Source: a virus. From it: a DNA stretch of 39,990 nucleotides. Below, piece after piece: positions 1 through 39,990 of the stretch. The notes under the pieces are model-generated. The model searched no databases, was not told where the DNA came from, and was given only the letters and a program-made list of their open reading frames with translations. The position numbers and the translations under genes were made by a program. Within the stretch, counting starts at the first letter, position 1. Each line of letters starts with the position of its first letter. The stretch lies in IMG/VR virus record IMGVR_UViG_3300031754_000009, positions 1 through 39,990 of that record. One strand, 5' to 3'.

Positions 1-127
1 CGGCGTGCCCGCCAACCCCTCGGGCGTCGAAGTCGGGATCTGGCTCGCCAATCAGTCCTACAAATTCTGCATTCAGAACTCGCTCGGCGTGCAGCTCCGC
101 TGCATCGACAACATCCCTGGCTATGCC
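1..127. repeat. Terminal direct repeat, left copy (circular contig overlap)
   Basis: Bases 1-127 are identical to bases 39864-39990. The reading frame that begins at 39619 passes through the right copy and continues in the same frame after the left copy, so the repeat is an overlap of one circular molecule. The length of 127 equals a commonly used maximum assembly k-mer, which favours an assembly overlap over a biological terminal redundancy (inference). Confidence 0.95.
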
Positions 128-1603: not shown

Positions 1604-1624
1604 ACATGTCCTCGAACTAACATG
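1592..1624 (+). repeat. 16/17-bp tandem duplication spanning stop and start codons
   Basis: TCCTCGAACTAAACATG (1592-1608) is followed directly by TCCTCGAACTAACATG (1609-1624). The first copy ends the fibre gene (TAA at 1601-1603). It also creates a decoy ATG at 1606 that reads only four codons (M-S-S-N) before a stop. The second copy supplies the ATG at 1622 of the next gene. Confidence 0.85.
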
Positions 1625-2761
1625 AGACGCCTTCTCTTCTTTCGCCTTTCGCTGTTCCTGCTCGCGGTCTCCTCCTTCGCTCAGGTCAACTCCGCCCGCA
1701 TGCTCTCGGGCGTGAACGCGCAGACCGGCTCGAGCTACACCTTTGTCGCGCTCGACTCGACGCGCATCACCACGTTCTCGAATGGCGCAGGTGTGGCGGT
1801 CACGCTGCCGGCGGGCACGACGCAGAACTTCGGAGCGGGAGCGGTCTTCTCGGCGAAGAACATCGGCGCGGGTCTAGTCACCATCACCTGCTCGTCGTGC
1901 ACGATTAACTCGACCGGCACGGCGTCCTCGACGCTCGCGCTCGCGACTGGGCAGAACGCCGATCTCTACTCGGACGGGACGAACTACGTGGCCTTCGTGC
2001 CGCCGGTAGTCTCGAGCAGCACCCCGACCATCGGAGACTGCCTGCTGTTTTCGACCAACGGCAGCGGACTGTTCGATCCGAGCGCGTGCCCGCCACATTT
2101 CATCCAAGTCGTTGCGGACCCGATCTCTACTCTTTCCGTCATCGGGAGCGCGCAAGCGGCCCAAAGCATTGGGAACACCACGACTGTCATCGCCGGAACC
2201 GCAACCGAGACAGGGGCAGTGACGCTCACTTCGGCCGCGTCAGCCTCAACCAATGATGTGGTTGATGTCGACCAGGGATTCGGCGCGGCCCAAGGGGATT
2301 CTTTTAACACCTACGGCTCAATGCGGCACTATGCCGTGCGCCTTCGCCTGAACAACACCGCGAACGTGCGCTACTGGTGGGGTCTGGCGAATGCCGCTCC
2401 GCAATTCGGCACAGCAGCGTACTCGACCAACACGCCCAACACCACGTACTGCATGTTCCGCTATTCGGCGGGCACGGATACGACCATCAAGGCCGCCTGC
2501 GGCACGTCCTCGGCCGCGCAAACGATCGCGGACACCACGGTCGCAGTCGACACCACCGCCTCCCACCTCTTCGAGATCACGAACGTGGGCGGAGCGACGA
2601 CCAGCTTCAACTTCCTGATCGACGGAACGGTGCGGGCGACCATCTCGACCAATCTGCCGACGGCGGCGACCAACTACGGCATGCTGGCGGTCGGCGATAA
2701 CCAGAACACGGCGACGGCGATCGGGTTCACGTTCTTCAATTCGACCATCGTTCTCAAGTAA
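1622..2761 (+). CDS. Secreted fibre-like protein with C-terminal lectin-like domain
   Basis: 379 residues. The N-terminus is a clear Sec signal peptide: Arg-Arg, a hydrophobic stretch, then SSFA|Q near residue 21. After it comes a beta-rich segment (about 35-125) with the pattern NGAGVAVTLPAGT...FGAGAVFSAKN, like glycine-rich phage fibre domains. The last 190 residues look like a jelly-roll or concanavalin-like sheet (YWWGLAN, FNFLIDGT, FTFFNSTIVLK), though no family can be named. The gene follows the tail fibre directly. No Shine-Dalgarno is visible, so translation may be coupled to the upstream gene. It could be a second receptor-binding fibre or a secreted surface protein. The export signal is seen; the role is inferred. 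Confidence 0.75.
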   Translation: MRRLLFFRLSLFLLAVSSFAQVNSARMLSGVNAQTGSSYTFVALDSTRITTFSNGAGVAVTLPAGTTQNFGAGAVFSAKNIGAGLVTITCSSCTINSTGTASSTLALATGQNADLYSDGTNYVAFVPPVVSSSTPTIGDCLLFSTNGSGLFDPSACPPHFIQVVADPISTLSVIGSAQAAQSIGNTTTVIAGTATETGAVTLTSAASASTNDVVDVDQGFGAAQGDSFNTYGSMRHYAVRLRLNNTANVRYWWGLANAAPQFGTAAYSTNTPNTTYCMFRYSAGTDTTIKAACGTSSAAQTIADTTVAVDTTASHLFEITNVGGATTSFNFLIDGTVRATISTNLPTAATNYGMLAVGDNQNTATAIGFTFFNSTIVLK

Positions 2762-2788: not shown

Positions 2789-3655
2789 ATGAAAAAACTT
2801 CTAATCTTCTGCTCCTTCATGCTCCTGCTGTGGGCGGCGCTGTTCCTGCTGATGGGGCAGATCAACAATGGGGGGGGAGGCGGGAGCACATTCACCGGAG
2901 GCACGATCACAACTCCGATTCTGGGCGCGAACGGAACTTGTTCAGCCGCCACCTATGGCTTTACGACCAATTCAGGCTACGGAGAAATTTTCCTTTCTGG
3001 TGTAGGTGCGGCGATGGCGGCGGGCGGAAACTGCACGGCTGGGTTTTCATCGACCTCTGTCGTGATGGGGTCAGCGATTAGTTTGGAATGGACAAACGGC
3101 GCTCCATTGACCAACGCCAACGACACTGGAATGGACAGGCCGACTGGGGGATTGCTTCAAGAAAATGCAGGTACGCCGGGAACCGAAGGCGGGTTACTGC
3201 GCCCCGGATTTGATTCGTGTCGCGTCACCGCCGACATCACACTCCCAGTCAACACGGCAACGACGGTGTGCTCCTGGTCGCTGCCTGCGCTTGCGAAGGC
3301 TTGGGCATGGCAGTGTGAAATTCCCTGGGTGATTTCGGCGGGCACGGGCACGAACACCCTGGCCATCATCGCGAATGCCTCGCAGACTCCTACCGCCGCA
3401 ACCAACGGCTTTGCGGAGATTCTGACCACGAATACCGGCACGGCGACAGAGGCGACGACTGCGATCTCCGCCTCTGGAGCCACTACGCTTCTTACCTCCG
3501 GAACCATCACGCCCGCCGCGACGGTGTTCTCGGCCCGCACCTCTGGAACCGTTCTGGCTTCCGGGACTGCTGGAACGTTTGCCATCCAGATGACCGCAGC
3601 AGGGACAACGGCGACGGCAGCAGCCAAGGCCGGGGCGACCTGCTTGCTCTACTAA
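2789..3655 (+). CDS. Exported, Gly/Thr/Ala-rich fibre-like protein
   Basis: 288 residues starting MKKLL. A hydrophobic stretch to about residue 23 ends in LLMG|Q and is followed by a Gly run. It may be a signal peptide or an N-terminal anchor; Gly at -1 is acceptable but not ideal. The rest is low in charge and rich in Gly, Thr, Ala and Ser, with Cys pairs (near 51, 76, 144 and 157) that would suit an oxidising compartment. The C-terminal third has alternating beta-type repeats (TSGTVLASGTAGTFAIQMTA). It is second in a run of three signal-peptide genes after the tail fibre. No family is recognised. Confidence 0.7.
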   Translation: MKKLLIFCSFMLLLWAALFLLMGQINNGGGGGSTFTGGTITTPILGANGTCSAATYGFTTNSGYGEIFLSGVGAAMAAGGNCTAGFSSTSVVMGSAISLEWTNGAPLTNANDTGMDRPTGGLLQENAGTPGTEGGLLRPGFDSCRVTADITLPVNTATTVCSWSLPALAKAWAWQCEIPWVISAGTGTNTLAIIANASQTPTAATNGFAEILTTNTGTATEATTAISASGATTLLTSGTITPAATVFSARTSGTVLASGTAGTFAIQMTAAGTTATAAAKAGATCLLY

Positions 3656-3682: not shown

Positions 3683-5128
3683 ATGAAAGTGTCTCGGCTC
3701 TTAGCTGCATTCTTCGTCTTGCTCTCTTCCCTCTCCGCGCAGATCAGTCAGAACGGTGGAAGCGGAGGCGGAAATTCCTACCTCTGGACTCGTGTCGGAA
3801 CCGTGATCTATCCCCGCGCTGATCTGGCAATCGATCAACAGGCGGTGCAGGAAGTCAGCGTGATGTACGACACCAGCGGGAACTGCCCCGTCATCGGATC
3901 GGGATATGGGACGGGTTGCTGGCGGGCGTGGTTTCACTGCGGCTGGTCGACTAACAATATTTGCGCGGCCGAAAGTACAGACGCATTCACCTGGCAACGC
4001 AGTGCAGGGGCGGTAGGCGGGTTAACAGCGAACTCCTATGCCACGCCCTTCGTGTGGAAGGCTGGCACAACTTATTATTTCTTGGGCTCCCGAACCAGCG
4101 GAAATCTGGATGAGTGGACATCGACTGACGGGTTCAACTGGGCGAATCCGAGCGCTTCGATCCTGACTCCCGGAAGCGCGGGTACATGGGATTCCTCATC
4201 GCTTGGCAACACTTCGGTGGTCACTTTCGGGCCGGTCGCGGGGATGTGGTACATGCTTTACGATGCCGTGGGAACGGGCTGTTTAAAGAACTGCATCGGC
4301 ACTGCGACCTCAACAAATAACGGGGTTAGTTGGACAAAGGGCGGAAGCAACCCAGTCATGACCGGCGGCACGCTGGGAGGCATCGGCGGTCCCGATCTGC
4401 ACTATGCCAACGGGCAATGGTATGCCTACATGCACACCGGGCAACTGCCCAGCGACATCTACTTCTCGACCTCGACCGATTTCGTGAACTGGACAACTCC
4501 GACGTTGGTCTTAAGGCGACAGACTCCGGATGAAGGCGTCAGTATTGGAACAGGGAGTCAGGCGCAAATCTCTGACCCTTTTGTGATGGAAGCGCCCTGT
4601 ATCGCTTTTTGGCCGAACGCAAATACGCCCGTGCTCTACAACAGCACCAACAAATGCTCATTCATGTTTTATGAAGCCATCGTCTTCCAATCGAGCCCGA
4701 ACGATTCCCACATCAAGCTGGCCGTGGCGAATATGCCACTCGCGCAAACACTAGCCGCGCAGCAAGCGAGCGCCGCGAATCTGGGTGTCGAACTGGGAGG
4801 ACAACCATTCGTCCAGGAAATTTACGATGTGCCGACGACATCGTCTGCCGGAAAGCTTTTCGGAGTAACCCCGGATTACTGGATGACGCGGACCAGCGCG
4901 AACACGGATGTTGCTGGGGAGCTTGCGTTTTCTTCCGCGACCATAGCGACCTACTCCTGGGTCGGGAAGTACAGCAACCATCCCGAATGCGGCGCCACCC
5001 CGCAGTTTGATCTAGGCGCGACGCCGCCGCGCATGTGGATCACCTACTCGACCACTGTGTCCTTCACCATCAACTTCTCGGCAGCGGTGACCGGCTCAGT
5101 CAGCTATCACTGCGACGGACGCAACTAG
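3683..5128 (+). CDS. Secreted GH43/GH32-type five-bladed beta-propeller glycosidase-like protein
   Basis: 481 residues with a signal peptide (MKVSRLLAAFFVLLSSLSA|Q, cleavage about 19/20). The next 330 residues carry repeated blade motifs of the kind S-T-D/N-x-x-x-W: TDAFTW (99-104), STDGFNW (147-153), STNNGVSW (210-217) and STDFVNW (264-270). These recur in GH43/GH32/GH117-type five-bladed propellers. DP-F-VMEAP (298-305) resembles the segment with the general-acid Glu (E303), and D47 or D51 near the first strand could be the base. The last 110 residues form a separate beta domain. Likely an exopolysaccharide depolymerase acting outside the cytoplasm. Fold assignment is moderately sure; activity and substrate are inferred. 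Confidence 0.7.
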   Translation: MKVSRLLAAFFVLLSSLSAQISQNGGSGGGNSYLWTRVGTVIYPRADLAIDQQAVQEVSVMYDTSGNCPVIGSGYGTGCWRAWFHCGWSTNNICAAESTDAFTWQRSAGAVGGLTANSYATPFVWKAGTTYYFLGSRTSGNLDEWTSTDGFNWANPSASILTPGSAGTWDSSSLGNTSVVTFGPVAGMWYMLYDAVGTGCLKNCIGTATSTNNGVSWTKGGSNPVMTGGTLGGIGGPDLHYANGQWYAYMHTGQLPSDIYFSTSTDFVNWTTPTLVLRRQTPDEGVSIGTGSQAQISDPFVMEAPCIAFWPNANTPVLYNSTNKCSFMFYEAIVFQSSPNDSHIKLAVANMPLAQTLAAQQASAANLGVELGGQPFVQEIYDVPTTSSAGKLFGVTPDYWMTRTSANTDVAGELAFSSATIATYSWVGKYSNHPECGATPQFDLGATPPRMWITYSTTVSFTINFSAAVTGSVSYHCDGRN

Positions 5129-18641: not shown

Positions 18642-19835
18642 ATGAGGTCTCACATGCTCGTTCCGCTCGCTCTCGCAGTGTTGCTCGGCCTTTGTTCGGC
18701 CCAGACCAACATCTGCGCACAATTCAACCGCGCGCCCGCCCCGATTCAGTACGGCTCGGGCTCGACCTACGAACACCTCTCCGGCAGCCACAACTGGGTT
18801 GCGCTGATGGGCGCGAACTGCACCTACAGCGGAACCAATCCCCAACAGGCTTGCACCATCACCGCCAATGCCTCCGCCTCTGCGTTGGTCGGCGAATCCG
18901 GCGCACTCTCGAACCTGGTCGAGATTCACGAAGTCAACAAACAGACCGCGCAGGGTGCGGGCTTTTCAAATGGTCCTGCCTTGTCGGTCGATTCAGAAGC
19001 AGCCGCGGCGGCGCGCGATTGTCCGCCGTGGGGCTGTGGAGTGAGTATTGGCATTACCGGCTCCGGTCTGGGGGGCGGGTTCAGCGTCTCCTTCCCCTCC
19101 GACGCGATCTTCGCCGACAAGCAGCATTACGCAGTGAGATGCGCAGGGCCGGTCTATGGCAGCGGTACGGGGGGCTGCGTGGGCGGAGTCGAGACGAAAT
19201 GCGGCGGCGGCGGTGGCTCGCCCATCGTGATTGCCATGAAGCATCGGGCCGACGTGACCAAGCTTTTCTCGAACCCGAAAGAAGCCTGCGTGCGCTTCAA
19301 CCTGCACAACGACAACAAACCTCCGTGCCTGTCCTGGCCGAAACGGGATTCGCGCGTGGCATTCCTGGTCTACGACCGCGATCACGATGGCGGCATAGTC
19401 GATTCGGGGGCGGAACTTTTCGGCACCTTCACCCCGCACGCCGATGGCGACTACCTGGGAGCCAAGGGCAAAGCCGACGTGAGCGGCTTCACTGCGCTCG
19501 CCTGGTTCGATCAGCCTCAGCAGGGCGGCAACCTCGATCTCGAAATCACGCCCAAGGACAAAGTCTGGCCACAGCTCAAATTGTGGTTTCCCGATCACTG
19601 TTGGGACCATCCAGACGAAGCCTGTGCGTCGATTCCCTCGGAGCTTCATTCGCTCGACTCCGAAGGCATTCACTCGCTTTCCCTGGTGGTCAGTCCCTCA
19701 TGGGATGTCGATCCCTGGGGCAATCAATTCAAGTTCTACGCGCAAGTGAACCCGAAACCGCACGAGCTGCAGCAACCCGACGATGAGCTGAACGAGCGGC
19801 GGATGTGGGACGTGTGGCTGGCCGTGCGAAAATAG
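18642..19835 (+). CDS. Secreted cargo (moron) protein with DxDxDG-ELFG module
   Basis: 397 residues, AAGGAG 8 bp upstream of ATG. Signal peptide to about residue 20 (VLLGLCSA|Q). Residues 60-190 are Cys- and Gly-rich. Residues 236-370 hold an EF-hand-like loop DRDHDG (245-250) followed by VDSGAELFG (253-261), then LAWFD, LKLWFPD and DPWGNQFKFYA, and the protein ends RRMWDVWLAVRK. This calcium-binding-looking D-x-D-x-D-G...ELFG...GNQF architecture is one I associate with secreted acidobacterial proteins, not with virion parts. The gene stands alone with its own terminator beside the control region, the pattern of a lysogenic-conversion (moron) gene. Confidence 0.7.
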   Translation: MRSHMLVPLALAVLLGLCSAQTNICAQFNRAPAPIQYGSGSTYEHLSGSHNWVALMGANCTYSGTNPQQACTITANASASALVGESGALSNLVEIHEVNKQTAQGAGFSNGPALSVDSEAAAAARDCPPWGCGVSIGITGSGLGGGFSVSFPSDAIFADKQHYAVRCAGPVYGSGTGGCVGGVETKCGGGGGSPIVIAMKHRADVTKLFSNPKEACVRFNLHNDNKPPCLSWPKRDSRVAFLVYDRDHDGGIVDSGAELFGTFTPHADGDYLGAKGKADVSGFTALAWFDQPQQGGNLDLEITPKDKVWPQLKLWFPDHCWDHPDEACASIPSELHSLDSEGIHSLSLVVSPSWDVDPWGNQFKFYAQVNPKPHELQQPDDELNERRMWDVWLAVRK

Positions 19836-24371: not shown

Positions 24372-24608
24372 GTGTGCCCGAATTGCGCCGAGCATCGCAC
24401 GGAGCGCCGCTACGGCGTCTATCGCGATTACATCAACTGGGCAAATGCGCCGCTGCTCGCGGGATTGCAGCGGGTCGAGCGCCCCGCTGTTGCTGGCGTC
24501 GACATTCCGTTCCCTGTATGGAAAAGCGCAAGCCTGCCCGTGAGCAAACACCACAAGCCGGAGCGCGTATTCCGCGTCGGAGCGGCTTCTTGGTTAGGCC
24601 ATGCCTGA
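24372..24608 (+). CDS. Small Cys-containing hypothetical protein
   Basis: 78 residues from GTG 24372; no clear ribosome-binding site, and the true start may lie slightly upstream. Starts CPNC with a third Cys immediately upstream in frame (ADC-VCPNC), then EHRTERRYGVYRDYINWANA. Overlaps the portal gene by 8 bp. Function unknown. Confidence 0.5.
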   Translation: MCPNCAEHRTERRYGVYRDYINWANAPLLAGLQRVERPAVAGVDIPFPVWKSASLPVSKHHKPERVFRVGAASWLGHA

Positions 24609-26847
24609 GCGCAAGCGCGACCACCGCGGCCGCTACATCGGGGAAAAGTCGCCCGAGGCCCGCAAGCGCGAGCAATTCCTGCAGTTGGCGCTCGAACGCT
24701 TCAAGCTGGCTGCCGACGCCGAGGCCCGCTGGCGCCGGGAAGCCCTCGAAGATTTCAACTTCTACCTGGGCGAGCAGTGGCCGCAAGACATCAAGACGCA
24801 GCGCGATCGCGATCGCAGACCGTGTTTGACGATCAACCGCCTCAAGCCCATGAAGCGCATCGTCTGCAACGAAATGCGCCAGCAGCGGCCCTCGATCCAG
24901 GTGAACCCGGTCGGGGACGGAGCGACGGTTGAGACTGCGCAGATCGAGCAAGGCATCATCCGCCACATCGAAGTGAACTCCGATGCGGAAGTGGCCTACG
25001 ACACCGCCGACGACCACATGGTGATTGGCGGGCGCGGCTGGCTCGAGGCTTCCACGCGCTACCGGCCAGGGCGGACGATGTCGCAGGAGATCCACATCGG
25101 CGCCGCGACCAATCCCTTCATGCACTACACCGACCCGAACGCGGCCGAGCTCGATAAAAGCGATGCCAAGTGGCATTTCAAGATCTGGGACTACACCCGC
25201 GCCGAGTTCGAATCGAAGTACCCGGACTCGGAAGCCGCCTCGCTCTCGGATTTCCAGTCGGTGGGCGACAACGGCAAAGACTGGCTGCAAAAAGACGCCG
25301 TGCGCGTGGCCGAGTACTGGTACATCGAGTACGAAGACTCCACGCTCTACCAGCTCGAGGACGGCTCGATTGTCGAAGCACTCCCTGAAGGCGTGAACGA
25401 AGACGATGAAGGCGTGAGCGCGCGCCCTTGGGAGAAGCCGAAGTGCATGTGGTGCAAGATCACCGCGGTCGATGTGCTCGACGGGAACGATGACGCCACC
25501 GGCGGCCGCGAAACCGTCTGGGACTCGATTCCCAACATTCCGGTGATCGGCGAAGAGCTGGACGTGAACGGCAAGGTGCACATGTGCGGCATGGTGCGCG
25601 ACGCCAAAGACCCGCAGCGCCAGTTCAACTACTGGGAGACGGCCGCGACCGAGATGATTGCGCTGGCCCCGAAAGCCCAGTGGAAAGGCTATGCGGAAGT
25701 CATCGAGGGTCACGAAGAAGAGTGGAAGAACGCGAACCGCACCAACTACTCGATTCTTACCGGCAAAGCCGTGGTCAAAGACAACCAGCTCCTGCCCCTG
25801 CCTGAACGCGACCAGGCCGAGCCTCCCATTCAAGCGATGGCGGCGATGCGGCAGTCGGGCGCCGCGAACCTCGAAGCTGTCACCGGAATTAACGACGCGG
25901 TGCTCGGCCGCATGAAGGCCGACGAATCCGGCAAAGCCGTACTCGCCCGGCAGAAGCAGGGCGATGTATCGAACCTCAACTACTCCGACAATTCCGCCCG
26001 CGCCAAGCGCCGTCTCGGCCGCCTGATTCTGCCCGCCATTCCCAAGGTCTATGACGTGCCGACCATCATGCGCATCGTCAACCCGGATGGAACCTCCGAG
26101 CACATCGTCACCCACTTGGGCGAGGACCAGCAGGCAGACGCGGCCGCGATGATGCAGCAGAACCCGGCCATCAAGAAAATCTTCGATCTCTCGGTGGGCA
26201 CCTACGACGTCACCGTCTCGGTCGGGCCGAACTACCAGACCAAACGCCAGGAAGCGGTGGCCTCGATCATGGCGCTGATCCAGGCCGAGCCCGCGGTGCT
26301 CGCCCTGATTGGCGATCTCCTGGTCGGCAACATGGACTGGAACCAGGCGCCGGAAATTGCCAAGCGGTTGAAGCTCTGGGTGATGCAGCAGAACCCCTAT
26401 CTCGCTCAGGAAGAAGGCGACGACCCGCAGGTGCAGGCCCAGAAAGCGCAGGCCCAGCTCGCCGCCTTGCAGCAGGTCCATGGGCAAGTGGTCGAGGCAC
26501 TGCAGAACGCGCAGAACATCATCCAGTCGAAGATGGTCGAGCAGCAGGGCAAGAAGGCGATCGAAGAAATGAAGATCAACGCCGACATCCTGCTCGGCAA
26601 GTGGAAGCTGCTCATGCCGGCCATCGTCGCCGAGATCAACACCAAAGCCCAGGACGCCAGCGCGCGCCGGGAAATCGATGCGGATCTGATCAAACAGATT
26701 CGCGACCAGGTGCACGAAGCCACCATGTCGGCCATGGGGCACCAGCAGAATCTCGAGCTCGGTGACCAGACGGCCACCAATCAGATGGCGGTGGCCGCAG
26801 CCCAGCCTCAACCCGGAAACGGGAACGGAACCCAACCTCAGCAATAA
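24601..26847 (+). CDS. Portal protein, P22 gp1-like
   Basis: 748 residues, in the P22 size class (725). The start (EARWRREALEDFNFYLGEQW) and NRLKPMKRIVCNEMRQQRPS, then GIIRHIEVNSDAEVAYDTA, are characteristic of P22-type portals, as is the central EAVTGINDAVLGRM...SGKAVLARQ segment. The C-terminal 200 residues are Gln/Ala-rich helix (barrel-like), ending in a Gln/Gly/Asn tail. Forms the dodecameric vertex through which DNA enters and leaves. Confidence 0.9.
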   Translation: MPERKRDHRGRYIGEKSPEARKREQFLQLALERFKLAADAEARWRREALEDFNFYLGEQWPQDIKTQRDRDRRPCLTINRLKPMKRIVCNEMRQQRPSIQVNPVGDGATVETAQIEQGIIRHIEVNSDAEVAYDTADDHMVIGGRGWLEASTRYRPGRTMSQEIHIGAATNPFMHYTDPNAAELDKSDAKWHFKIWDYTRAEFESKYPDSEAASLSDFQSVGDNGKDWLQKDAVRVAEYWYIEYEDSTLYQLEDGSIVEALPEGVNEDDEGVSARPWEKPKCMWCKITAVDVLDGNDDATGGRETVWDSIPNIPVIGEELDVNGKVHMCGMVRDAKDPQRQFNYWETAATEMIALAPKAQWKGYAEVIEGHEEEWKNANRTNYSILTGKAVVKDNQLLPLPERDQAEPPIQAMAAMRQSGAANLEAVTGINDAVLGRMKADESGKAVLARQKQGDVSNLNYSDNSARAKRRLGRLILPAIPKVYDVPTIMRIVNPDGTSEHIVTHLGEDQQADAAAMMQQNPAIKKIFDLSVGTYDVTVSVGPNYQTKRQEAVASIMALIQAEPAVLALIGDLLVGNMDWNQAPEIAKRLKLWVMQQNPYLAQEEGDDPQVQAQKAQAQLAALQQVHGQVVEALQNAQNIIQSKMVEQQGKKAIEEMKINADILLGKWKLLMPAIVAEINTKAQDASARREIDADLIKQIRDQVHEATMSAMGHQQNLELGDQTATNQMAVAAAQPQPGNGNGTQPQQ

Positions 26848-27423: not shown

Positions 27424-28419
27424 ATGCCGAACGCGACTGAACAGCCCGACATCACCCTTGCTTCGACCACCGAAAGCCAGGCCGAACTCGATCACGCGAC
27501 TGGCCCCAACTGGCGCCAGCACTTCGATCCCGCCAAAGCCAAAGCCGAGGAAGAAGCCAAAGGGAAAGACAAGCCTGCGGAATCGTCCGTGAAAAAGGAC
27601 GAGACCAAGACCGCGCCCGCCTCAGAGCCGGGCAAAGTTGCGAGCCCGAAGGAAGACGACGAAGACAAGGACATTCCGCCCGGCGTCCGCAAGCGGCTGG
27701 ACCGGCTGACCGCGAAGCTCAGGGAAACTGAACGCGCGCTCGAAGCCTCCACCCGCCGCCCGGAAGCCCGCACGGACGGAGCGAAGACCGAACCGGCCAA
27801 GGCCGCTGTCGAAGCTGATCCCGAGCCCCAAGTCAAAGACTTCAAGAGTTGGGACGAGTGGAACGCAGCCCACAACCGCTGGCTGGTTCGCGACGAGCAG
27901 CGCAAGCTCGACGTGAAAGCCGCCGAGGAAGAAGCCAAGGAGAACGCGAAGGCAACCTTCGACGCTCACCTGGAACGGCTCGAGGCCGCTCGCGTCGACC
28001 ATGACGACTTCGATGACGCCATCAAGGGCATGCCGGTGTTCGAGTTTTCGAGCCCATCGGCGAACCAGGCCTTTCAGATGGCGCTGGTCGATTCGGAAAA
28101 CTCGGCCGAGCTGATGTACCACCTTGCGCATCACCCGGAAGACATGGCGAAGTTCGCCGACCTGTCTCCGGTCGGGGTGCAGCGCATGGTGGGCCGGCTC
28201 GAGGCCCGGCTTTTTCCGGAAAGCGCTGCGTCTTCCTCGAGCACCACAAGTCCTTCTTCGGCCGCTCGCGCCAAACCTGTCAGCCGCACCCCGAAGCCCA
28301 CCACGCCGGTGCGCGGCACAACCACGGCTCCGACCGCACTCGACGATCCCACGCTGGTGAAAGACACCGACGCCTGGATCGCGCGCAGGCAGGCGCAGCT
28401 CAGCTCCCGCCGGCATTGA
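27424..28419 (+). CDS. Scaffolding protein
   Basis: 331 residues directly before the coat gene. Lys/Glu-rich and mostly helical (EEEAKGKDKPAES; RLDRLTAKLRETERALEAST; KAAEEEAKENAKATF), with a Ser/Thr/Pro-rich, basic C-terminal region. P22 scaffold also uses a basic C-terminal helix to bind coat. Composition, size and position all fit, although there is no close sequence match. Directs prohead assembly and leaves before DNA packaging. Confidence 0.8.
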   Translation: MPNATEQPDITLASTTESQAELDHATGPNWRQHFDPAKAKAEEEAKGKDKPAESSVKKDETKTAPASEPGKVASPKEDDEDKDIPPGVRKRLDRLTAKLRETERALEASTRRPEARTDGAKTEPAKAAVEADPEPQVKDFKSWDEWNAAHNRWLVRDEQRKLDVKAAEEEAKENAKATFDAHLERLEAARVDHDDFDDAIKGMPVFEFSSPSANQAFQMALVDSENSAELMYHLAHHPEDMAKFADLSPVGVQRMVGRLEARLFPESAASSSSTTSPSSAARAKPVSRTPKPTTPVRGTTTAPTALDDPTLVKDTDAWIARRQAQLSSRRH

Positions 28420-28436: not shown

Positions 28437-29657
28437 ATGAACACCTATTTAACAATCGGCATGGTCACAAACGAGGCCTTGATGGTCCTCGTCAACAACC
28501 TCGCTGCCGTGAAGCGTGTGAATCGTCAGTACGACGACCGCTTCGGCATCGAGGGCGCAAAAATTGGGACGGTGTTGAACATCCGCCGTCCGCCCCGTTA
28601 TCTCACTGCTCTCGGACAATCTCTCCAGATCGAAGATGCGACCGAAACCTCGGTGCCATTAGTTCTGAACACCCAAAGACACCTGGGCCTCGCGTTCTCC
28701 TCCGTCGATCTCGCGCTCAACATCGACGATTTCTCGAAGCGCTTCATCCGGCCAGGCCTCGCCACGCTCGCGAACTTCATCGATTTCGACGTGCTCGGCC
28801 AGTACCTGAACGTCTTCAACGAAATCGGCACGCCCGGCACAGTTCCGAACCTCACCCTGACTTATTTGCAGGTCGGGCAGCGGCTCTCCGATATGTCGGT
28901 GCCCTTTGAAGACCGCTGCGTCGTGCTCTCAACCGGCATGAACGCGGTTCTGGTCGACACCGTGAAGGGCCTGTTCAACCCGCAGCGCACCATCTCCGAC
29001 CAGAACGAAAAAGGCATGGTGGCCCGCGATTTCTTGGGCTTCGACTGGTATGTCGACCAGAACACCCGCGTACAGACTGTCGGTGCCTATGCCGGCGGCA
29101 CGCCGGTGGTCAACGGTGCCGGGCAAACCGGCTCGTCGATCATCACCTCGGGCTGGCCGAACACGACCGCCATCCTGAACCAGGGCGACATCATCTCCTT
29201 CGCCGGCGTGTTCTCGGTCAACGCCCAGAACCGGCAGGCGAACTCCGCTCTGGCGCAGTGGGTTGTGACCGCGAACGTTGTCTCCTCCGGCGGCGGCGCG
29301 GCCACTATTCCGATCGCTGGACCTTCCGGCAACGGGCTGATCACAGCCGGGCCGTTTATGAACGCTTCGGCGTCTCCGGCCAACTCCGCAGCCATCACGG
29401 TGCAGGGCGCTTCCGGAACCGGGCCGTCCCCACGCGGACTCGCCTTCCACGAGGACGCATTCACTCTGGGCATGGCCGACCTGGTCGTACCCGGCGGCGT
29501 CGACATCGGCGAGCGGGCATCGTCCCAAGAGATGAAAGCCTCGTTCCGTCTGGTGCGGGCGTATGACATCAACCAGGACCGCTTCCCCTTCCGCGGCGAC
29601 GTTCTCTATGGAGTGGCGACACTCTATCCAGAACTGGCTTGCCGGATTGCGAGCTGA
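28437..29657 (+). CDS. Major capsid protein, P22 coat-like
   Basis: 406 residues, close to P22 gp5 (430). P22-coat features: MVTNEALMVLVNNLAAVKRV near the N-terminus, NTQRHLGLAFSSVDLALNID (strand/E-loop region), RDFLGFDWYVDQN, GDIISFAGVFSVN in the inserted domain, and the C-terminal RLVRAYDINQDRFPFRGDVL...GVATLYPELACRI. HK97-fold shell protein. A Gly/Ala-rich stretch (290-330) corresponds to the variable insertion. Start at ATG 28437 follows the scaffold by 17 bp. Confidence 0.92.
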   Translation: MNTYLTIGMVTNEALMVLVNNLAAVKRVNRQYDDRFGIEGAKIGTVLNIRRPPRYLTALGQSLQIEDATETSVPLVLNTQRHLGLAFSSVDLALNIDDFSKRFIRPGLATLANFIDFDVLGQYLNVFNEIGTPGTVPNLTLTYLQVGQRLSDMSVPFEDRCVVLSTGMNAVLVDTVKGLFNPQRTISDQNEKGMVARDFLGFDWYVDQNTRVQTVGAYAGGTPVVNGAGQTGSSIITSGWPNTTAILNQGDIISFAGVFSVNAQNRQANSALAQWVVTANVVSSGGGAATIPIAGPSGNGLITAGPFMNASASPANSAAITVQGASGTGPSPRGLAFHEDAFTLGMADLVVPGGVDIGERASSQEMKASFRLVRAYDINQDRFPFRGDVLYGVATLYPELACRIAS

Positions 29658-29694: not shown

Positions 29695-30735
29695 ATGACC
29701 AAAACACTCAAGCGAATTCTCACTGCTCTGTTTACGTACGCGCTGTTTGACGCGCTGATCCTCGGCTACGCTGGGTTCTTGCCCGGCGTGCAGCTGGCAG
29801 CCGCGCAGACTACGCTGACCCAAACCACGCTCGCTGCCGACATGCCGGTCGGGCCAGCCTCGCTCGCCGGCGGAGCCCAGGGCGCTCTGGTGACCACGGT
29901 CAACCTGACCTCAGCCACCGGGGTGCAGCAAGCCTTCAACGGCTCGCCGATCACCTGGATTTATGTCGACACTGAGTTGATGGGGGTTCTGACCACAGTT
30001 CCTGGACAAACCACGATCTTCAATGTGCAGCGCGCCCAGCAAGGCACCAAGGCCGCGTTCCACAAAGCGAATGCCGTGGTCTACATCCAGGTCGGCTCTC
30101 CCCAGTTCGGCGGCTTCTCGGGATCAGGCGGGCTCTATCTCTCCGATCCGCCGATTCAGGGGAGTTGTCTCGCCTCGGGCACTCTGGTGACGCCGTGGAT
30201 CAATGTCATCTCGGGAACCCAGTTCCTGTGCGGAACCTTCGTCACGCCGGGCGGCAGTGTACTCACGGGATGGATTCCTGCGTCGGAGCCACAATTTCCT
30301 TCGCAGAACATCGCGCAAACGCTGTACGTGAACGCCTCCTATACCAACGCCACCACCACCTACTCGAACGTGCCGAACCTGGCATTTGTGGTGCAGGCGA
30401 ACCGCAACTACTCGGTGAATTGCAACCTCACCTGGCAGGTATCGGGCACGGTGGGGCCGAAGTTCCAGTTCACCGGACCAGGCTCGCCGACGTCGGTCGC
30501 AATCAATGCTTCCGCGGCGCAGACGGCGACGACCAGCGGCTACGGTTCAGCGACGGCGTTTGCTTCTTCGGTCACGGGCACGGGCGGAACGGTGACGACG
30601 ACTACGAACTTCGTCGCCAACGTGACGCTCGGGCTGATCAACGGGGCGAACTCGGGCACGGTGCAGCTGCAGGCGGCGGAAAACGGCGCGGGCACGCTCA
30701 CCATTCAGCCGGGCAGCTACTGCGAAGTGCAATAG
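29695..30735 (+). CDS. Secreted fibre-like protein after the coat gene
   Basis: 346 residues from ATG 29695 (AAAGGA 9 bp upstream); longer in-frame starts lie inside the coat gene. Long signal peptide: MTKTLKR, hydrophobic helix, then GVQLAAA|Q near 37. The mature part has a domain with DTELMGVLTTVPGQTTIFNV and QRAQQGTKAAFHKANAVVYI (about 90-140), of the type seen in phage base or fibre proteins. A long Thr/Ser/Gly beta region with three or four Cys follows. It is closed by the terminator at 30750. Exported decoration, fibre or surface protein; family unknown. Confidence 0.7.
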   Translation: MTKTLKRILTALFTYALFDALILGYAGFLPGVQLAAAQTTLTQTTLAADMPVGPASLAGGAQGALVTTVNLTSATGVQQAFNGSPITWIYVDTELMGVLTTVPGQTTIFNVQRAQQGTKAAFHKANAVVYIQVGSPQFGGFSGSGGLYLSDPPIQGSCLASGTLVTPWINVISGTQFLCGTFVTPGGSVLTGWIPASEPQFPSQNIAQTLYVNASYTNATTTYSNVPNLAFVVQANRNYSVNCNLTWQVSGTVGPKFQFTGPGSPTSVAINASAAQTATTSGYGSATAFASSVTGTGGTVTTTTNFVANVTLGLINGANSGTVQLQAAENGAGTLTIQPGSYCEVQ

Positions 30736-31543: not shown

Positions 31544-32323
31544 GTGGCGACTCCGCCTCTGATCCCGCCTGGCCTGTTCTGGGCCTCGCAGGACTACATT
31601 AATAGCTCTCTGCGCCTGATCGGCTCGCTCAGTTCGGGCGAGCTGCCCTCGGCGGCCGAGAACCAGGATGCGCTTGCGATCCTGAACCAGATGCTCGACA
31701 GCTGGCAGGCGCAGTCCTGGATGATTCCCGGACTGCAGCGCTTCATCTTCGCCCCGGCCGCGCTGAAGCAGACCTACGCGGTCGGACCCTCGGGCGACCT
31801 GAATATCGTTCGCCCGTCGAAGATCTCGGCCGTGTCGGTGATCGACCAGCCAGGTTCAACTCAGCCTATCGAGTTGGCCCTCGACATGATCAGCGCGACC
31901 TCCGAGCCCGGCGGCTGGCGCGATATTCCGGTGAAGAACACGCCAGGCTCATTGCCTTTGCGGGTTTGGGACGACTGCGCCTATCCCGCGCGCAACTTGA
32001 GCTTCTGGCCGGTCCCAACGGTTAACGTCAATTTCGCGCTCTATCTCCCGCAGGTGCTCACGCAGTTTTTCGACCTGGTGACGCAGTATCAGCTCCCGCC
32101 GATCTACACCAAAGCCATTCGCTTCAACCTGGCGAAGGACCTGATGGCGGAATTTCCGGGCGATCCGGCGCGCTACCCGCTGGTCTTGAGGACGGCGGAA
32201 GAGATGATCGGCGAAATCAAGACCATCAACTACCGGCCGCCGGTGGCCTCGGTCGATGCGGCGCTGGTGAATCCCAAGATGGATCTCTACAACTGGCTGA
32301 CGGATGAGCCAGCAGGAAGGTGA
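31544..32323 (+). CDS. Tail-accessory/head-completion protein, P22 gp4-like
   Basis: 259 residues from GTG 31544. Matches the P22 gp4 pattern: SLRLIGSLSSGELPSAAENQ with ALAILNQMLDSWQAQSWMIP at the N-terminus, then PARNLSFWPVPTVNVNFALY and YTKAIRFNLAKDLMAEFPGD. gp4 binds below the portal, closes the filled head and receives gp10. P22 gp4 is shorter (166), so the family's longer variants are the better comparison. Order portal-scaffold-coat-gp4-gp10 is as in P22. Confidence 0.8.
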   Translation: MATPPLIPPGLFWASQDYINSSLRLIGSLSSGELPSAAENQDALAILNQMLDSWQAQSWMIPGLQRFIFAPAALKQTYAVGPSGDLNIVRPSKISAVSVIDQPGSTQPIELALDMISATSEPGGWRDIPVKNTPGSLPLRVWDDCAYPARNLSFWPVPTVNVNFALYLPQVLTQFFDLVTQYQLPPIYTKAIRFNLAKDLMAEFPGDPARYPLVLRTAEEMIGEIKTINYRPPVASVDAALVNPKMDLYNWLTDEPAGR

Positions 32324-32328
32324 TCGCG

Positions 32329-32724
32329 ATGAAGAAACGAATTTCGCTCTGGTTGGTGGCGGCTGCCCTGCTGTTTTCTTTCGAGGTCTGGGTACTGATT
32401 CCGCCCGCTTCGGTGCACGCGCAGGTCACGCCCACGCCAGGCGTCGTCACCATTCAGGCTACGATCGGCGCCGGCACCAACACGCAGATCACCACTACAG
32501 ACACGCCCTGCTCGGAGCTCTATCTGCAAAACAACGCAGCGCATAACATGCGCGTTGGCGGCGCGGCTACGACCAGCTCGAAGGGCGCCCAGCTGACGAC
32601 GGTGACGGGTGGAGGCGGCGGTTCACTCACCGCAAACGGCTTCGGATTTCGGGGCACGAATGCGAATCAGTGGTTCGTCGCGGGCACCAACGGCGATGTT
32701 GTGGATGTGATCTGCATTCAGTAA
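32329..32724 (+). CDS. Exported small beta protein between gp4-like and gp10-like genes
   Basis: 131 residues from ATG 32329, with GGAAGG about 10 bp upstream; an in-frame GTG at 32320 also exists. Signal peptide: MKKRISLWLVAAALLFSFEV, then PPASVHA|Q near 31. The mature protein is one beta domain with CSELYLQNNAAHNMRVGG...SSKGAQLTTV and two Cys. The LYLQNNAAHNMRVG pattern resembles small structural proteins of other phages, which normally lack a signal peptide. Function in virion or periplasm undecided. Confidence 0.7.
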   Translation: MKKRISLWLVAAALLFSFEVWVLIPPASVHAQVTPTPGVVTIQATIGAGTNTQITTTDTPCSELYLQNNAAHNMRVGGAATTSSKGAQLTTVTGGGGGSLTANGFGFRGTNANQWFVAGTNGDVVDVICIQ

Positions 32725-32748: not shown

Positions 32749-34575
32749 ATGTCACGCTTCAGCTTCTGCGGGCCTAGCTACGCATCGCAGTCGGTTTCGG
32801 CCGACTGCCAGATTTGCCGCAACTGGTATCTCGAAGCCGTCGAGAGCCAGATGGGCAAGAGCGCCTTTGTGCTCTACCCGCGGCCGGGACTGAATCTCGT
32901 CTACCAGTTGGGCGGCGCGCCCATGCGCGGCGAGACGACGGTGCAGGGCCGGACGTTCGCGGTCCAAGGTACAACGCTCTGGGAACTCCTGGCAGGCGGC
33001 GGCAAGACCAACCGCGGCGCGATTGCCTCCGATGGCCTCCCCGTTTCGTTGGCGGGCGGGGGAACGCAGCTGCTCATCGCCTCCCAGCAGCGTGCCTGGG
33101 TCTACGACCTGAAGGCGAACACTCTGACCGAAGTAACCGCGACGATTGGCTTGCCGGTTGCGCAAGTCGCTTACTTCTTCGGGTTCTTCGTCGCGCTCAT
33201 CGCAGGGCAGAACAAGCTCCAGGCCTCCGCCGCGAATGATGCGACCACCTGGCCGGGCGCAAGCTTCACCGGAGTGCAGAATTTCACCGAGCCGCCGATC
33301 GCGCTCTTCGTCGATCACGAGCAGCTCTGGGTGCTTGGCCCGAAGGGCATCCAGCCGTACTACAATTCCGGCAACTTCCCTTTTCCTTTCGATGCTATCC
33401 AGGGAGGGTACATCGAAAACGGCCTTGGTGCGGCTGCTGCGATCGCCAAGGCCGATAATTCCCTCTTCTGGCTGGACGCGAGCGAGCGCGGCAACGCCAT
33501 GATCCGCCGCGCCAACGGTTTCGTTCCCGTGCGCGTCTCGAATCATGCCATCGAGTTTGCCATGCAGAGCTACGCGACGATTGCCGACTGCGTGGCCTTT
33601 TCCTATCAGGACCAGGGCCACGAGCGCGTGGTGTTTTCTTTCCCGACTGCGGGCAAGACCTGGGAATACGACGCGGCCACCGGACAGTGGAACGAGCCCG
33701 CTTACTGGGACACCAAGCTCGGCAAATTCACCCAGCACCGGGCCATGTTCCACACCTTCAACTTCGGCATGCACCTGGTCGGCGATCCCACCACCGGCAA
33801 CGTCTACCAGATGGCGATCCCGACGCTCGTGGGCGCGACCTATCAGTTTGTCACCGACAACAACAACCCGATCCGCCGGGTGCGAAGAGCTCCGCACATC
33901 TCGCAGGAGCAGGAATGGATTTTCCATTCCCAGCTGCAGGTGGACGTCGAGACCGGCTTAGGCCCGGTTCCGCCGCTCCAGGGTACGGGAACGCCGACGA
34001 CTTTCTATCTCGCCGATTCCTCGGGCGCAATCTGGGCGCTCACGGTCAACGATATTGGGATTCTGCAGACTACTCCCGCCCTGGCTGGGGCTTCGCCGGG
34101 CCTCTTGTTCATGAATGATCCCGTCGCCGGAACTTCGTGGCAGGTGGTTGTGTCGACACTGGGCGTCCTCCAGGCCGCGCCGGTCACATTCAATGGCAAC
34201 AATCAGAATGTGCAGGTGATGGTGTCCTCTACCGGCCAAACCGTCTGGAATTTCTTTGTGACCGATGTCGGCGGCGGGCATGCAGTGTTGAAGACGCAGG
34301 AGACCGGCATCTTCGCCCGCGGTCCGCAGATGATGATGCGCTTCTCAAACGACGGCGCCCACACTTTTTCGCAGGAGCAGTGGGTCGATTGCGGGCAGGC
34401 GGGAGAGTTCACCAAGCGCGCGATCTGGCGAAGACTGGGCAAGGCGCGAGACCGGGTGTACGAGATCGCGGTCACCGATCCGATTCCCTGGCGCATCATC
34501 GATGCCTACCTGAAAGCGAGTCCGGGGTACGGGCCGAGCGAGCGCTTACCGAAGGAACTGGCGAAGCGAGCCTAA
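32749..34575 (+). CDS. Packaged-DNA stabilisation protein, P22 gp10-like
   Basis: 608 residues. The N-terminus (YASQSVSADCQICRNWYLEA; SAFVLYPRPGLNLVYQLGG; GRTFAVQGTTLWELLAGG) is typical of the gp10/Phage_stabilise family, followed by beta-propeller-like repeats (FFVALIAGQNKLQASAANDA; VDHEQLWVLGPKG; NSLFWLDASERG). P22 gp10 is 472 residues; the extra length lies in a segment around 400-520 (YLADSSGAIWALTVND) that may be a separate inserted domain. Connects the head-completion ring to the tail tip. Confidence 0.8.
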   Translation: MSRFSFCGPSYASQSVSADCQICRNWYLEAVESQMGKSAFVLYPRPGLNLVYQLGGAPMRGETTVQGRTFAVQGTTLWELLAGGGKTNRGAIASDGLPVSLAGGGTQLLIASQQRAWVYDLKANTLTEVTATIGLPVAQVAYFFGFFVALIAGQNKLQASAANDATTWPGASFTGVQNFTEPPIALFVDHEQLWVLGPKGIQPYYNSGNFPFPFDAIQGGYIENGLGAAAAIAKADNSLFWLDASERGNAMIRRANGFVPVRVSNHAIEFAMQSYATIADCVAFSYQDQGHERVVFSFPTAGKTWEYDAATGQWNEPAYWDTKLGKFTQHRAMFHTFNFGMHLVGDPTTGNVYQMAIPTLVGATYQFVTDNNNPIRRVRRAPHISQEQEWIFHSQLQVDVETGLGPVPPLQGTGTPTTFYLADSSGAIWALTVNDIGILQTTPALAGASPGLLFMNDPVAGTSWQVVVSTLGVLQAAPVTFNGNNQNVQVMVSSTGQTVWNFFVTDVGGGHAVLKTQETGIFARGPQMMMRFSNDGAHTFSQEQWVDCGQAGEFTKRAIWRRLGKARDRVYEIAVTDPIPWRIIDAYLKASPGYGPSERLPKELAKRA

Positions 34576-34578
34576 CCG

Positions 34579-34827
34579 ATGCCTGCTCCCAAGTTTCAGC
34601 CCGCTCCGCCGCACGAGCAAGTCTTTCTCGATGGCGATAAACCCTCAAAGGCCTGGTACCAGTGGTTTACTTTGCTTCCGCCGCGCCTGACCTCGCCCGC
34701 CGTGGGTTCGACTCCGGCGAGCTCGGCGGCGAATGGCATTCCCGGCCAGATCAGCTTTGACCAAAACTTTCTATACATCTGCGTGGCAACCAACACATGG
34801 AAACGGCTAGCACTGAGCGCGTTCTAG
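34579..34827 (+). CDS. Small tail-region protein with NTWKR motif
   Basis: 82 residues. The C-terminal PGQISFDQNFLYICVATNTW followed by KRLAL is a motif common at the ends of phage tail-fibre and tail-needle proteins. The N-terminus is Pro-rich. It lies 3 bp after the gp10-like gene, the place of the tail needle (gp26) in P22, but is much too short to be one. Overlaps the GNAT gene by 31 bp. Confidence 0.6.
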   Translation: MPAPKFQPAPPHEQVFLDGDKPSKAWYQWFTLLPPRLTSPAVGSTPASSAANGIPGQISFDQNFLYICVATNTWKRLALSAF

Positions 34828-35171
34828 AAATTCGCCGGCTCAACTCGTCGGAGTACGACGAACTTCTGAAGATTGAGGAAGGCTATCGACCGGAGCCTGA
34901 GCATAGTGTCGTGGTGGTCGCGAAGCAGGACGGTGCAATTGTTGCGCGGACCATGCTCATCCGGCCTTTCCACATCGAGGGCACCTGGATCGATGAGCGA
35001 TTTCGTAAAGGCACTCTCGGACTGCGCCTGATGATGCGACTCGAAAAAGAAGCCAAGGACGCCGGGTTAACCAAGCTTTTCTCCTATGCGGCAGATGCTG
35101 ACATTGAGAGTTATTTAGAGCGCCTCGGCTACACGAAGCAACCCGTGACCGTCTGGACGAAAGACATCTGA
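34797..35171 (+). CDS. GNAT-like acetyltransferase
   Basis: 124 residues from ATG 34797, overlapping the previous gene. Signature of the GNAT fold: SVVVVAKQDGAIVARTMLIR (beta 2-4), RKGTLGLRLMMRLEKEAKDA (pyrophosphate-loop and alpha-3 region) and LFSYAADADIESYLERLGYT (alpha-4 plus beta-7). The RxxGxG/A loop is divergent (RFRKGTLGLRL). Embedded between tail genes, so it may modify a virion or host protein during late infection. No substrate can be proposed from sequence. Confidence 0.65.
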   Translation: METASTERVLEIRRLNSSEYDELLKIEEGYRPEPEHSVVVVAKQDGAIVARTMLIRPFHIEGTWIDERFRKGTLGLRLMMRLEKEAKDAGLTKLFSYAADADIESYLERLGYTKQPVTVWTKDI

Positions 35172-35172
35172 C

Positions 35173-36345
35173 ATGCCCCTTGCAGCCTTAGGCGTCATCG
35201 GAGCGATTGGAAGTATCGGCGGAGCAGCGATCGGTGCGAGCGCGGCCAGTAATGCGGCCTCGACGCAAGCCGATGCCGCGAAGACCGCCGCCCAGCTCCA
35301 ATTCGAATCCCAACAGCAAGCCCTGCAGTTCGAGGAACAGCAGTGGCAGCAGGCGCAGACCAATGCCGCACCGTGGCTCCAGACCGGGGGATCGGCGGAA
35401 CTGGCGCTGGGACAACTCTTGGGACTGCCGGGTCCTTCGAGCGGCATGACGCCGGGAAGTCCCTTCCCTGCCAGCGTTCCGGGTGCAGCTCCCACCGCTC
35501 CGAATCCGAATCCCGCGCAACCGACCGGCAGCCAGTTCTCCATGATGGGGCTGACCGCGCATCCGGGGGTCACGCCTCCAGGGATGTCGAGCGGCACTCC
35601 GGTCTCAGCTGGCTCGTTTGGGATGCCGGCTTCAGGAGTCACACCGGGAGCCTCGACGGGCAGGCCAGTCACTCCCGGAATGACGGGGACGGCCGCGGCT
35701 CCGACTGGCGCGGCAAATCCGCTGGGCGGGAATTTGCAGCCCTTCGCGCCCTGGACCACGCCCTTCGTTGCCCCGACCAACGTCACCGAACAGAACGATC
35801 CCGGCTATCAGTTCCGGATGTCGCAAGGCCTGGGCGCGCTCGAAAACTCCGCGGCGGCGCGCGGCGGCCTGCTCTCCGGCAACACCGCCGAAGCCGAGCA
35901 GCAATTTGCGCAAGGCTTAGCCTCGAACGAATACGGCAACGTTTATAACCGGGCGCTCGGCCAGTACCAGCAGAACTACAACATCTATCAGCAAAACCAG
36001 GCGAACCAGTGGAACCGGCTGGCCTCGCTCGCGGGCCTCGGGCAGACCACGGCGGGGCAACTCAACTCCGCAGGCCTGCAGGCGGGATCGTCGATCGGAA
36101 ACATCCTGCTCGGCGGCTCGCAGGCGATCGGGCAGAACCTCAACAACGCTGCCGCCGCGACGGCTTCCGGATACATCGGCGGAGCCAATGCCTACGGTGG
36201 AGCGCTCGGAGGCATCGGCGGCAATGTGGGGAATCTGCTCTTGATGCAGCAGTTGCTCGGCAACAAAGGCGGCCCGGTGGATCTCTCGGGCGTTTCGATG
36301 AATCCGGTTCCCGGCTCCGCCCTGGGCGATTACGGAGCACCTTAA
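35173..36345 (+). CDS. Ejection/DNA-transfer protein, P22 gp7 position
   Basis: 390 residues. A hydrophobic Gly/Ala N-terminus (LGVIGAIGSIGGAAIGASAA) could insert in membrane. A helical Gln-rich segment follows (40-62), then a 130-residue Pro/Gly/Thr-rich linker, then the conserved NDPGYQFRMSQGLGALENSA with ARGGLLSGNT, NEYGNVYNRALGQYQQNYN and a Gly/Asn-rich helical tail. This NDPGYxFRxxxG...RGGLxSG motif is common in podoviral internal or DNA-transfer proteins. Probably leaves the capsid with DNA and crosses the envelope. Confidence 0.75.
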   Translation: MPLAALGVIGAIGSIGGAAIGASAASNAASTQADAAKTAAQLQFESQQQALQFEEQQWQQAQTNAAPWLQTGGSAELALGQLLGLPGPSSGMTPGSPFPASVPGAAPTAPNPNPAQPTGSQFSMMGLTAHPGVTPPGMSSGTPVSAGSFGMPASGVTPGASTGRPVTPGMTGTAAAPTGAANPLGGNLQPFAPWTTPFVAPTNVTEQNDPGYQFRMSQGLGALENSAAARGGLLSGNTAEAEQQFAQGLASNEYGNVYNRALGQYQQNYNIYQQNQANQWNRLASLAGLGQTTAGQLNSAGLQAGSSIGNILLGGSQAIGQNLNNAAAATASGYIGGANAYGGALGGIGGNVGNLLLMQQLLGNKGGPVDLSGVSMNPVPGSALGDYGAP

Positions 36346-39618: not shown

Positions 39619-39990
39619 ATGAAACTCCTGAAACGCCTCTTATTCGTGCTATTGCTGTGGGGCGGCTTCGCCCATCTCGTAGAAGCGCAAGTGCTGGTCT
39701 CGATCACGTCCTCGCCCTACCAGCAGTTTCTCGATAACTCCGGCAAGCCTCTCGCCGGCGGCAAGGTCTACACTTACAACGCCGGCACCACCACGCTGGC
39801 CAATAGTTACACCGATTCCTCAGGTACCACACTCAACACCGACCCGATCATCCTGGACGCCGCCGGCGTGCCCGCCAACCCCTCGGGCGTCGAAGTCGGG
39901 ATCTGGCTCGCCAATCAGTCCTACAAATTCTGCATTCAGAACTCGCTCGGCGTGCAGCTCCGCTGCATCGACAACATCCCTGGCTATGCC
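39619..39990 (+). CDS. Tail fibre/spike protein, N-terminal part (continues at 2-1603)
   Basis: Start ATG 39619; the frame runs off the window end and continues through the circular junction at base 2 (615 residues in all). Residues 1-23 are a signal peptide (MKLLKRLLFVLLLWGGF...VEA|Q). Residues 29-105 match the head-binding-like N-terminal domain of tailspikes and fibres: SPYQQFLDNSGKPLAGGKVY, TYNAGTTTLANSYTDSSGT, then PIILDAAG...GIWLANQSYKF. In P22-like virions this domain attaches the fibre to the tail and is made in the cytoplasm, so a preceding signal peptide is unexpected. There is no ribosome-binding site directly upstream. Confidence 0.85.
   Translation, partial: MKLLKRLLFVLLLWGGFAHLVEAQVLVSITSSPYQQFLDNSGKPLAGGKVYTYNAGTTTLANSYTDSSGTTLNTDPIILDAAGVPANPSGVEVGIWLANQSYKFCIQNSLGVQLRCIDNIPGYA
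39864..39990. repeat. Terminal direct repeat, right copy
   Basis: Identical to bases 1-127. The codon phase is preserved across the two copies (GTG at 39868 equals GTG at 5), which shows that the sequence is circular or terminally redundant. Confidence 0.95.

Follow-up and report, generated by a model that had tools for sequence, protein, structure and literature searches.

The fibre gene of a P22-like soil podovirus opens with a predicted signal peptide (SP) placed directly before the domain by which P22-type tailspikes dock onto the particle. The phage was recovered as a virus contig of 39,990 bases (IMGVR_UViG_3300031754_000009), which was analyzed in full and is referred to here as the window. 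We think it probable that the gene encodes a virion tailspike or fibre that carries a Sec SP ahead of its docking domain, is exported and disulfide bonded, and joins a particle built in the cytoplasm at lysis. The features on which this reading is based are listed in Table 1.

A signal peptide before a P22-type head-binding domain

The first 127 bases of the contig are identical to its last 127, a direct repeat that makes this a circular assembly. The ATG at 39619 opens a frame that begins with MKLLKRLLFVLLLWGGFAHLVEA, continues after the predicted cleavage site with QVLVSITSSPYQQFLDNSGKPLAGGKVYTYNAGTTT and runs to the end of the window. From there it crosses the circular junction to a stop at base 1603, which gives a protein of 615 residues; the truncation of the gene is a product of where the circular record was opened. 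The gene follows the ejection genes and is the first of a four-gene cassette (starting at 39619, 1622, 2789, and 3683). In the C-terminal part of the fibre (window 128-1603, plus strand), a GL(V/I)NC...GGDCHD module occurs twice, with a Cys pair in each copy.

The genome has the makeup of a temperate P22-like podovirus, with TerL, portal, scaffold, coat, Hc3, and ejection genes in order plus an integrase (PHROGs and Pfam). It also encodes the adaptor (gp4-like by order and conservation only) and the gp10-like hub that accompany a P22-type tailspike, and the Hc3/gp10-like hub is the likely docking partner of the fibre. No tRNA was found in the window.

Table 1. Features of the phage genome (window coordinates; ↓ marks a predicted cleavage site)
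Feature	Position	Strand	Basis
Direct repeat	1..127, identical to 39864-39990	.	End comparison
Fibre/tailspike gene, 5' part, residues 1-124 of 615	39619..39990	+	ORF and 127-bp end repeat
Predicted SP, residues 1-23, VEA↓Q	39619..39687	+	n-region KLLKR, hydrophobic core, AxA-type site
Predicted tailspike head-binding domain, residues 24-124	39688..39990	+	Sequence profile, AlphaFold2, Foldseek
Fibre gene remainder, shaft/receptor region, repeated Cys-pair module	128..1603	+	Same frame over junction
Second fibre-type gene, SP SSFA↓Q, phage minor-tail-type domain, 6 Cys	1622..2761	+	SP call, domain search
Third cassette gene, SP, 6 mature Cys	2789..3655	+	SP call, Cys count
Fourth cassette gene, SP LSA↓Q, GH43-like, 10 mature Cys	3683..5128	+	SP call, Pfam
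Protein with SP CSA↓Q, function unknown, 12 mature Cys	18642..19835	+	SP call; L007 homolog with SP
Portal protein, no SP	24601..26847	+	PHROG 156, E 2e-117
Scaffolding protein, no SP	27424..28419	+	PHROG 8865
Major coat protein, no SP	28437..29657	+	PHROG 283, E 9e-65
SP-bearing gene directly after coat, 4 mature Cys	29695..30735	+	SP in every clade member with whole gene
Tail adaptor (gp4-like by gene order), no SP	31544..32323	+	PHROG 12985 (function unknown); conserved in clade
Small SP protein, VHA↓Q, 2 Cys, between gp4-like and Hc3 genes	32320..32724	+	SP call
Head closure Hc3/gp10-like tail hub, no SP	32749..34575	+	PHROG 578, E 2e-88
DNA ejection protein, no SP called, no Cys	35173..36345	+	PHROG 598, E 4e-21

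Residues 24-124 matched the tailspike structure 9vyg in a single-sequence query against the PDB (E 6e-5) and, when a 54-row profile was used with hmmsearch, the head-binding domain of the cyanophage Pam1 tailspike (7eeq; E 6e-14). The AlphaFold2 model of the domain reached a pLDDT of 89.8. Its fold aligned with the P22 tailspike head-binding domain 1lkt (TM 0.76/0.74, E 1.2e-5), and all 23 Foldseek matches in the PDB at E<1e-3 were podovirus tailspike or tail-complex structures (P22, Sf6, Pan3, and Pam1). Matches in the Foldseek viral library were phage proteins, many of them annotated as pectate lyase-type, tail fibre, or chaperone-domain proteins. Pfam returned no significant family for the fibre N-domain of the window, and the family that we take to be the P22 tailspike head-binding entry, PF09008, had no match above its gathering score in the window or in any of the 54 aligned members. 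The predicted relation to the P22 tailspike rests on the modeled fold and on the 7eeq and 9vyg sequences. A preliminary description of this DNA had recognized a fibre-docking domain here and named a common extracellular beta domain as the finding that would overturn that assignment; the structural comparison upholds the assignment, every PDB match at E<1e-3 leading to podovirus tails.

Nearly all of the ~90 relatives of this domain, isolates included, start it at or near Met1 and have no SP; a few have an upstream extension of the frame, likewise without an SP. A P22-type tailspike carries the domain at the N terminus of its primary product, whereas 23 residues of SP precede it in the window. 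The Met1 of the SP-less homologs falls within ~3 residues of the N terminus that predicted cleavage would give the mature fibre.

Predicted signal peptides and even cysteine counts across the clade

SPs were called on mechanical gene calls with our own rule-based scorer (not SignalP), using one threshold for the clade and the controls. By this scorer, the fibre N terminus has the charged n-region, hydrophobic core, and AxA-type site of a Sec type I SP. The clade was defined from a scan with the Hc3 protein and has 11 fibre-bearing members (the window, L098, L099, L100, L101, L103, L104, L107, L182, L183, and L185), which together with L105 form one group in the Hc3 tree (support of 0.99). All 11 carry an SP on the fibre, those of L098 and L100 being judged by eye because of an upstream extension of the frame. 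None of the fibres found in sister P22-like contigs of the same scan has one. Over all genes, SPs were called in 27 of 151 in the clade versus 3 of 683 in the sister contigs (Fisher p 3e-18, a value that ignores relatedness); the caller also passed 3 of 231 shadow ORFs and 79 of 5,000 shuffles of the first 40 residues. A further scan of the collection with an alignment of the SP-clade fibres was dropped because the fibres are too divergent.

Within the clade, SPs are found on the fibre, the gene after coat, further fibre genes and, in some members, a small gene close to that of the adaptor; most of the predicted sites are A↓Q. No SP was called on the coat, portal, scaffold, gp4-like, Hc3, or ejection genes of the clade. 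The fibre gene does not stand alone in this, as the same phage has SPs on the three other cassette genes, on the after-coat gene, and on the gene between adaptor and Hc3. The last has small SP-bearing counterparts at the same place in L103 and L104. By gene order only, the after-coat protein would hold the cement-protein position of Pam1-type phages, in which a cement gene follows coat (PMC9382816); its AlphaFold model (pLDDT of 54) is too poor to support a virion role. The GH43-like match of the fourth cassette protein is below cutoff (E 3e-5), and its L103 homolog also bears an SP.

We considered whether the SP is an annotation artefact, in which the true start lies downstream and the hydrophobic frame upstream of it is due to chance. 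The fibre start in the window is not preceded by a clear Shine-Dalgarno sequence. However, in L103, L104, L107, L183, and L009 the SP start codon and the upstream stop share a 4-nt overlap (ATGA), which indicates that translation starts at the SP in these relatives, and strong Shine-Dalgarno-like sequences precede it in L005 and L185. Given also the conservation in 11 of 11 members and the rarity of SP calls in sister phages and shadow ORFs, the clade comparison largely refutes the artefact, which we regard as very improbable. Somewhat less remote, and still quite unlikely, is a gene with two products, an exported pre-fibre made from the ATG and a cytoplasmic fibre made from an internal start (GTG, codon 25 in the window). 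A GTG does stand right after the predicted cleavage site in both the window and L098, and for the window itself an internal start would be formally conceivable. In the L101 fibre, however, none of codons 16-45 is a start codon, and later starts lie at different places in different members.

The mature SP-bearing proteins of the clade contain 1.78 Cys per 100 residues, and the count is even in 33 of 34. SP-less core virion proteins of the same phages have 0.43 per 100, with even counts in 15 of the 25 that have any Cys, and SP-less fibres have 0.82 (38 even and 33 odd, or 38/71). The nominal binomial p for even counts is 2e-9, which ignores shared ancestry, since counts within gene families are not independent. 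Among the clade fibres the number itself varies (6, 8, 12, or 14) and yet is even in 10 of 11, L185 being odd. One gene (26860-27351) with a hydrophobic start lacks n-region charge, was not called and lies outside the SP set; counting it as odd (one mature Cys by eye) gives 33/35. The mature start of L103_1723 was set by eye at an A↓QQNLL site (4 Cys), and L103_4825 is even under either mature start (8, or 16 from an FG↓Q site). Even counts would reflect paired gain and loss of disulfide cysteines. In our reading, enriched and even cysteines on the mature side therefore provide indirect evidence of disulfide bonding, and hence of folding, outside the cytoplasm.

The same data bear on whether the segment is an uncleaved membrane anchor, which would tether fibres, and hence maturing virions, to the inner membrane or aid penetration of the next host. 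The hydrophobic core has the length of a signal anchor, and cleavage is a prediction. Against this stand the AxA-type sites, mostly with Q at +1, the enriched and even cysteines beyond them, and the domain's usual start at Met1, ahead of which an uncleaved helix would remain. We consider an anchor unlikely, if slightly less so than the two-product gene.

SPs on fibres appear, from sequence comparison, to have been gained independently in other lineages (L009, L005, and Tunturi_1/2). In L009, MKKFLAILLIALMLPVLGHAG precedes TRAIQIESIL, whereas nine close relatives (51-60% identity) begin M(S/T)TRA(I/V/L)QI with no genuine SP, so that a full SP occupies the place of their Met-Ser. A head-binding domain preceded by an SP also occurs in L005, which falls in another part of the Hc3 tree. 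An SP call in L192 was rejected as a false positive, as the called stretch lies inside the head-binding domain.

Several other genes were observed in passing. In the window, a gene at 6441-6830 (plus strand) has an above-cutoff match to Tlde1 (PF10908), a domain whose L,D-transpeptidase-like fold is familiar from T6SS effectors and here occurs in a phage; it is upstream-adjacent to a minus-strand ORF (6827-7216) with an SP-like N terminus (..LPAHA↓Q). A GNAT acetyltransferase gene (34797-35171, plus strand) lies between the hub and ejection genes, with similarly placed homologs in L182, L183, and L185, and Tunturi phages too have an acetyltransferase among their structural genes. In L002, a 94-aa ORF (2303-2587, minus strand) beginning MNRRGFLSLLGMGVAGIALEQAIP has a twin-arginine-like leader and is just upstream of the hub gene.

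Proposed assembly in two compartments and its main rival

The preliminary description saw a paradox in this gene, in that export would remove the fibre from cytoplasmic assembly. Its SP in front of a docking fold stands, backed by clade-wide conservation and cysteine parity, but the removal from assembly was overstated. Tailspikes of the P22 type are the last part to attach, and in extracts they can still be added to particles that are otherwise complete. Because their docking is the last step, export need not take the fibre out of assembly. We infer the following sequence of export, cleavage, disulfide formation, late docking, and incorporation into the virion. The head, portal, adaptor, hub, and ejection proteins would assemble in the cytoplasm, while host Sec would export the fibre, the other fibre-cassette proteins, and probably a head-surface protein, with loss of the SP. 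Cleavage would leave a mature N terminus ~3 residues or less from the Met1 of ordinary SP-less tailspikes. The exported proteins would then trimerize and form disulfide bonds in the periplasm. Lysis would open the inner membrane and bring packaged particles together with finished fibres, whose head-binding domain would then dock on the adaptor/hub to complete assembly.

The main rival is that the SP-bearing proteins are exported but do not enter the virion, acting at the cell surface or in the medium of the infected or lysogenic cell (as depolymerase, adhesin, decoy, or in superinfection exclusion), with the docking domain kept as a relic or trimer cap. In its favor are the integrase of the phage and precedents from bacteria: Pantoea WceF combines a Tat signal peptide, a head domain like that of P22, and the beta-helix of a tailspike (PMC7949094), and Bdellovibrio MAT fibres come after a signal peptide (PMC10769870). 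However, the SP-clade contigs yielded no SP-less gene with a head-binding domain, so that under a non-virion role these phages would lack a recognizable adhesin of this kind. The fibre gene also keeps its standard position after the ejection genes along with the docking fold, and the after-coat and hub-adjacent genes carry SPs too. We therefore regard a non-virion role as unlikely, though less so than the other alternatives, and favor a virion fibre that is exported before it docks.

More broadly, tailed-phage virions are usually viewed as built wholly in the cytoplasm. We give roughly even chances to a general two-compartment morphogenesis, in which a cytoplasmic core receives, at lysis, adhesins and head-surface proteins that were Sec exported and disulfide bonded in the periplasm, and which would have arisen several times and would affect whole sets of outer proteins. 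If outer proteins are exported and oxidized first, assembly gains a periplasmic stage, and disulfide-stabilized adhesins become possible. SPs, often read as a nonstructural feature, could then mark virion surface proteins in metagenomes. We found no report of SPs on tailed-phage virion proteins in the open-access literature.

Comparison with known systems

The tailspikes of P22 and Sf6 (1lkt, 8tvr, and 7sg7) and of Pam1 and Pan3 (7eeq and 9vyg) share with the window fibre the fold and sequence family of residues 24-124 and the place of the gene in a P22-like genome that also encodes an adaptor, Hc3, and ejection proteins. Unlike nearly all of the ~90 relatives, the window fibre has a 23-residue SP and enriched, even cysteines. 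In filamentous phages (inoviruses), the coat and minor coat proteins carry signal peptides and cross the inner membrane. These phages resemble the window phage in having virion proteins with signal peptides and differ from it in being extruded through the membrane, whereas the window phage encodes a terminase and a portal and has a tailed capsid.

WceF of Pantoea stewartii (6tgf), which modifies biofilm glycan, is similar in that a P22-like head domain and a trimeric tailspike fold come after its signal peptide, but it is a bacterial enzyme with a Tat signal and not a phage virion gene (PMC7949094). It was the next structural match after the tail complexes, and a weak one (Foldseek E 0.05). 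The Bdellovibrio MAT fibres are likewise phage-fibre-like proteins made by a bacterium with a signal peptide; they differ in being predation adhesins, and the likeness drawn here is by description (PMC10769870).

As to the host, a portal scan of bacterial genomes found only a phage contig from a Bacteroidetes MAG and a Paraburkholderia contig. The former (L188/L189; PLYJ01000004.1, 37,098 bp) is an apparent P22-like phage contig in a Bacteroidetes MAG bin, with a coat protein 44% identical to that of the window over the part read; it was set aside as a host clue because its fibre is SP-less, and the scan pointed to no host. We tentatively infer an Acidobacteriota host for the window phage.

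A parallel in SP placement comes from cultured Acidobacteriota phages. Tunturi_1 and Tunturi_2 (PP887698 and PP885685; PMC11924767) are podoviruses of Tunturiibacter with SPs on consecutive tail/fibre genes (gp12, gp13, gp14, gp16, and gp17), mostly with A↓Q sites and mostly with even Cys counts. In Tunturi_1, where gp14 is the tail spike, the SP proteins have 20, 10, 20, and 32 Cys and the short gp16 has 1. The term "signal peptide" is absent from the main text of the paper describing them. They differ from the window in that no protein similarity to it was found, and Tunturi_1 gave no match to the head-binding domain profile. The annotated structural genes checked in Tunturi_3 and in the half of Tunturi_4 that was read have no SP; host phylum is therefore not enough to account for the trait. 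As a cultured pair with SPs on tail genes, Tunturi_1 and Tunturi_2 make the idea of exported virion proteins directly testable.
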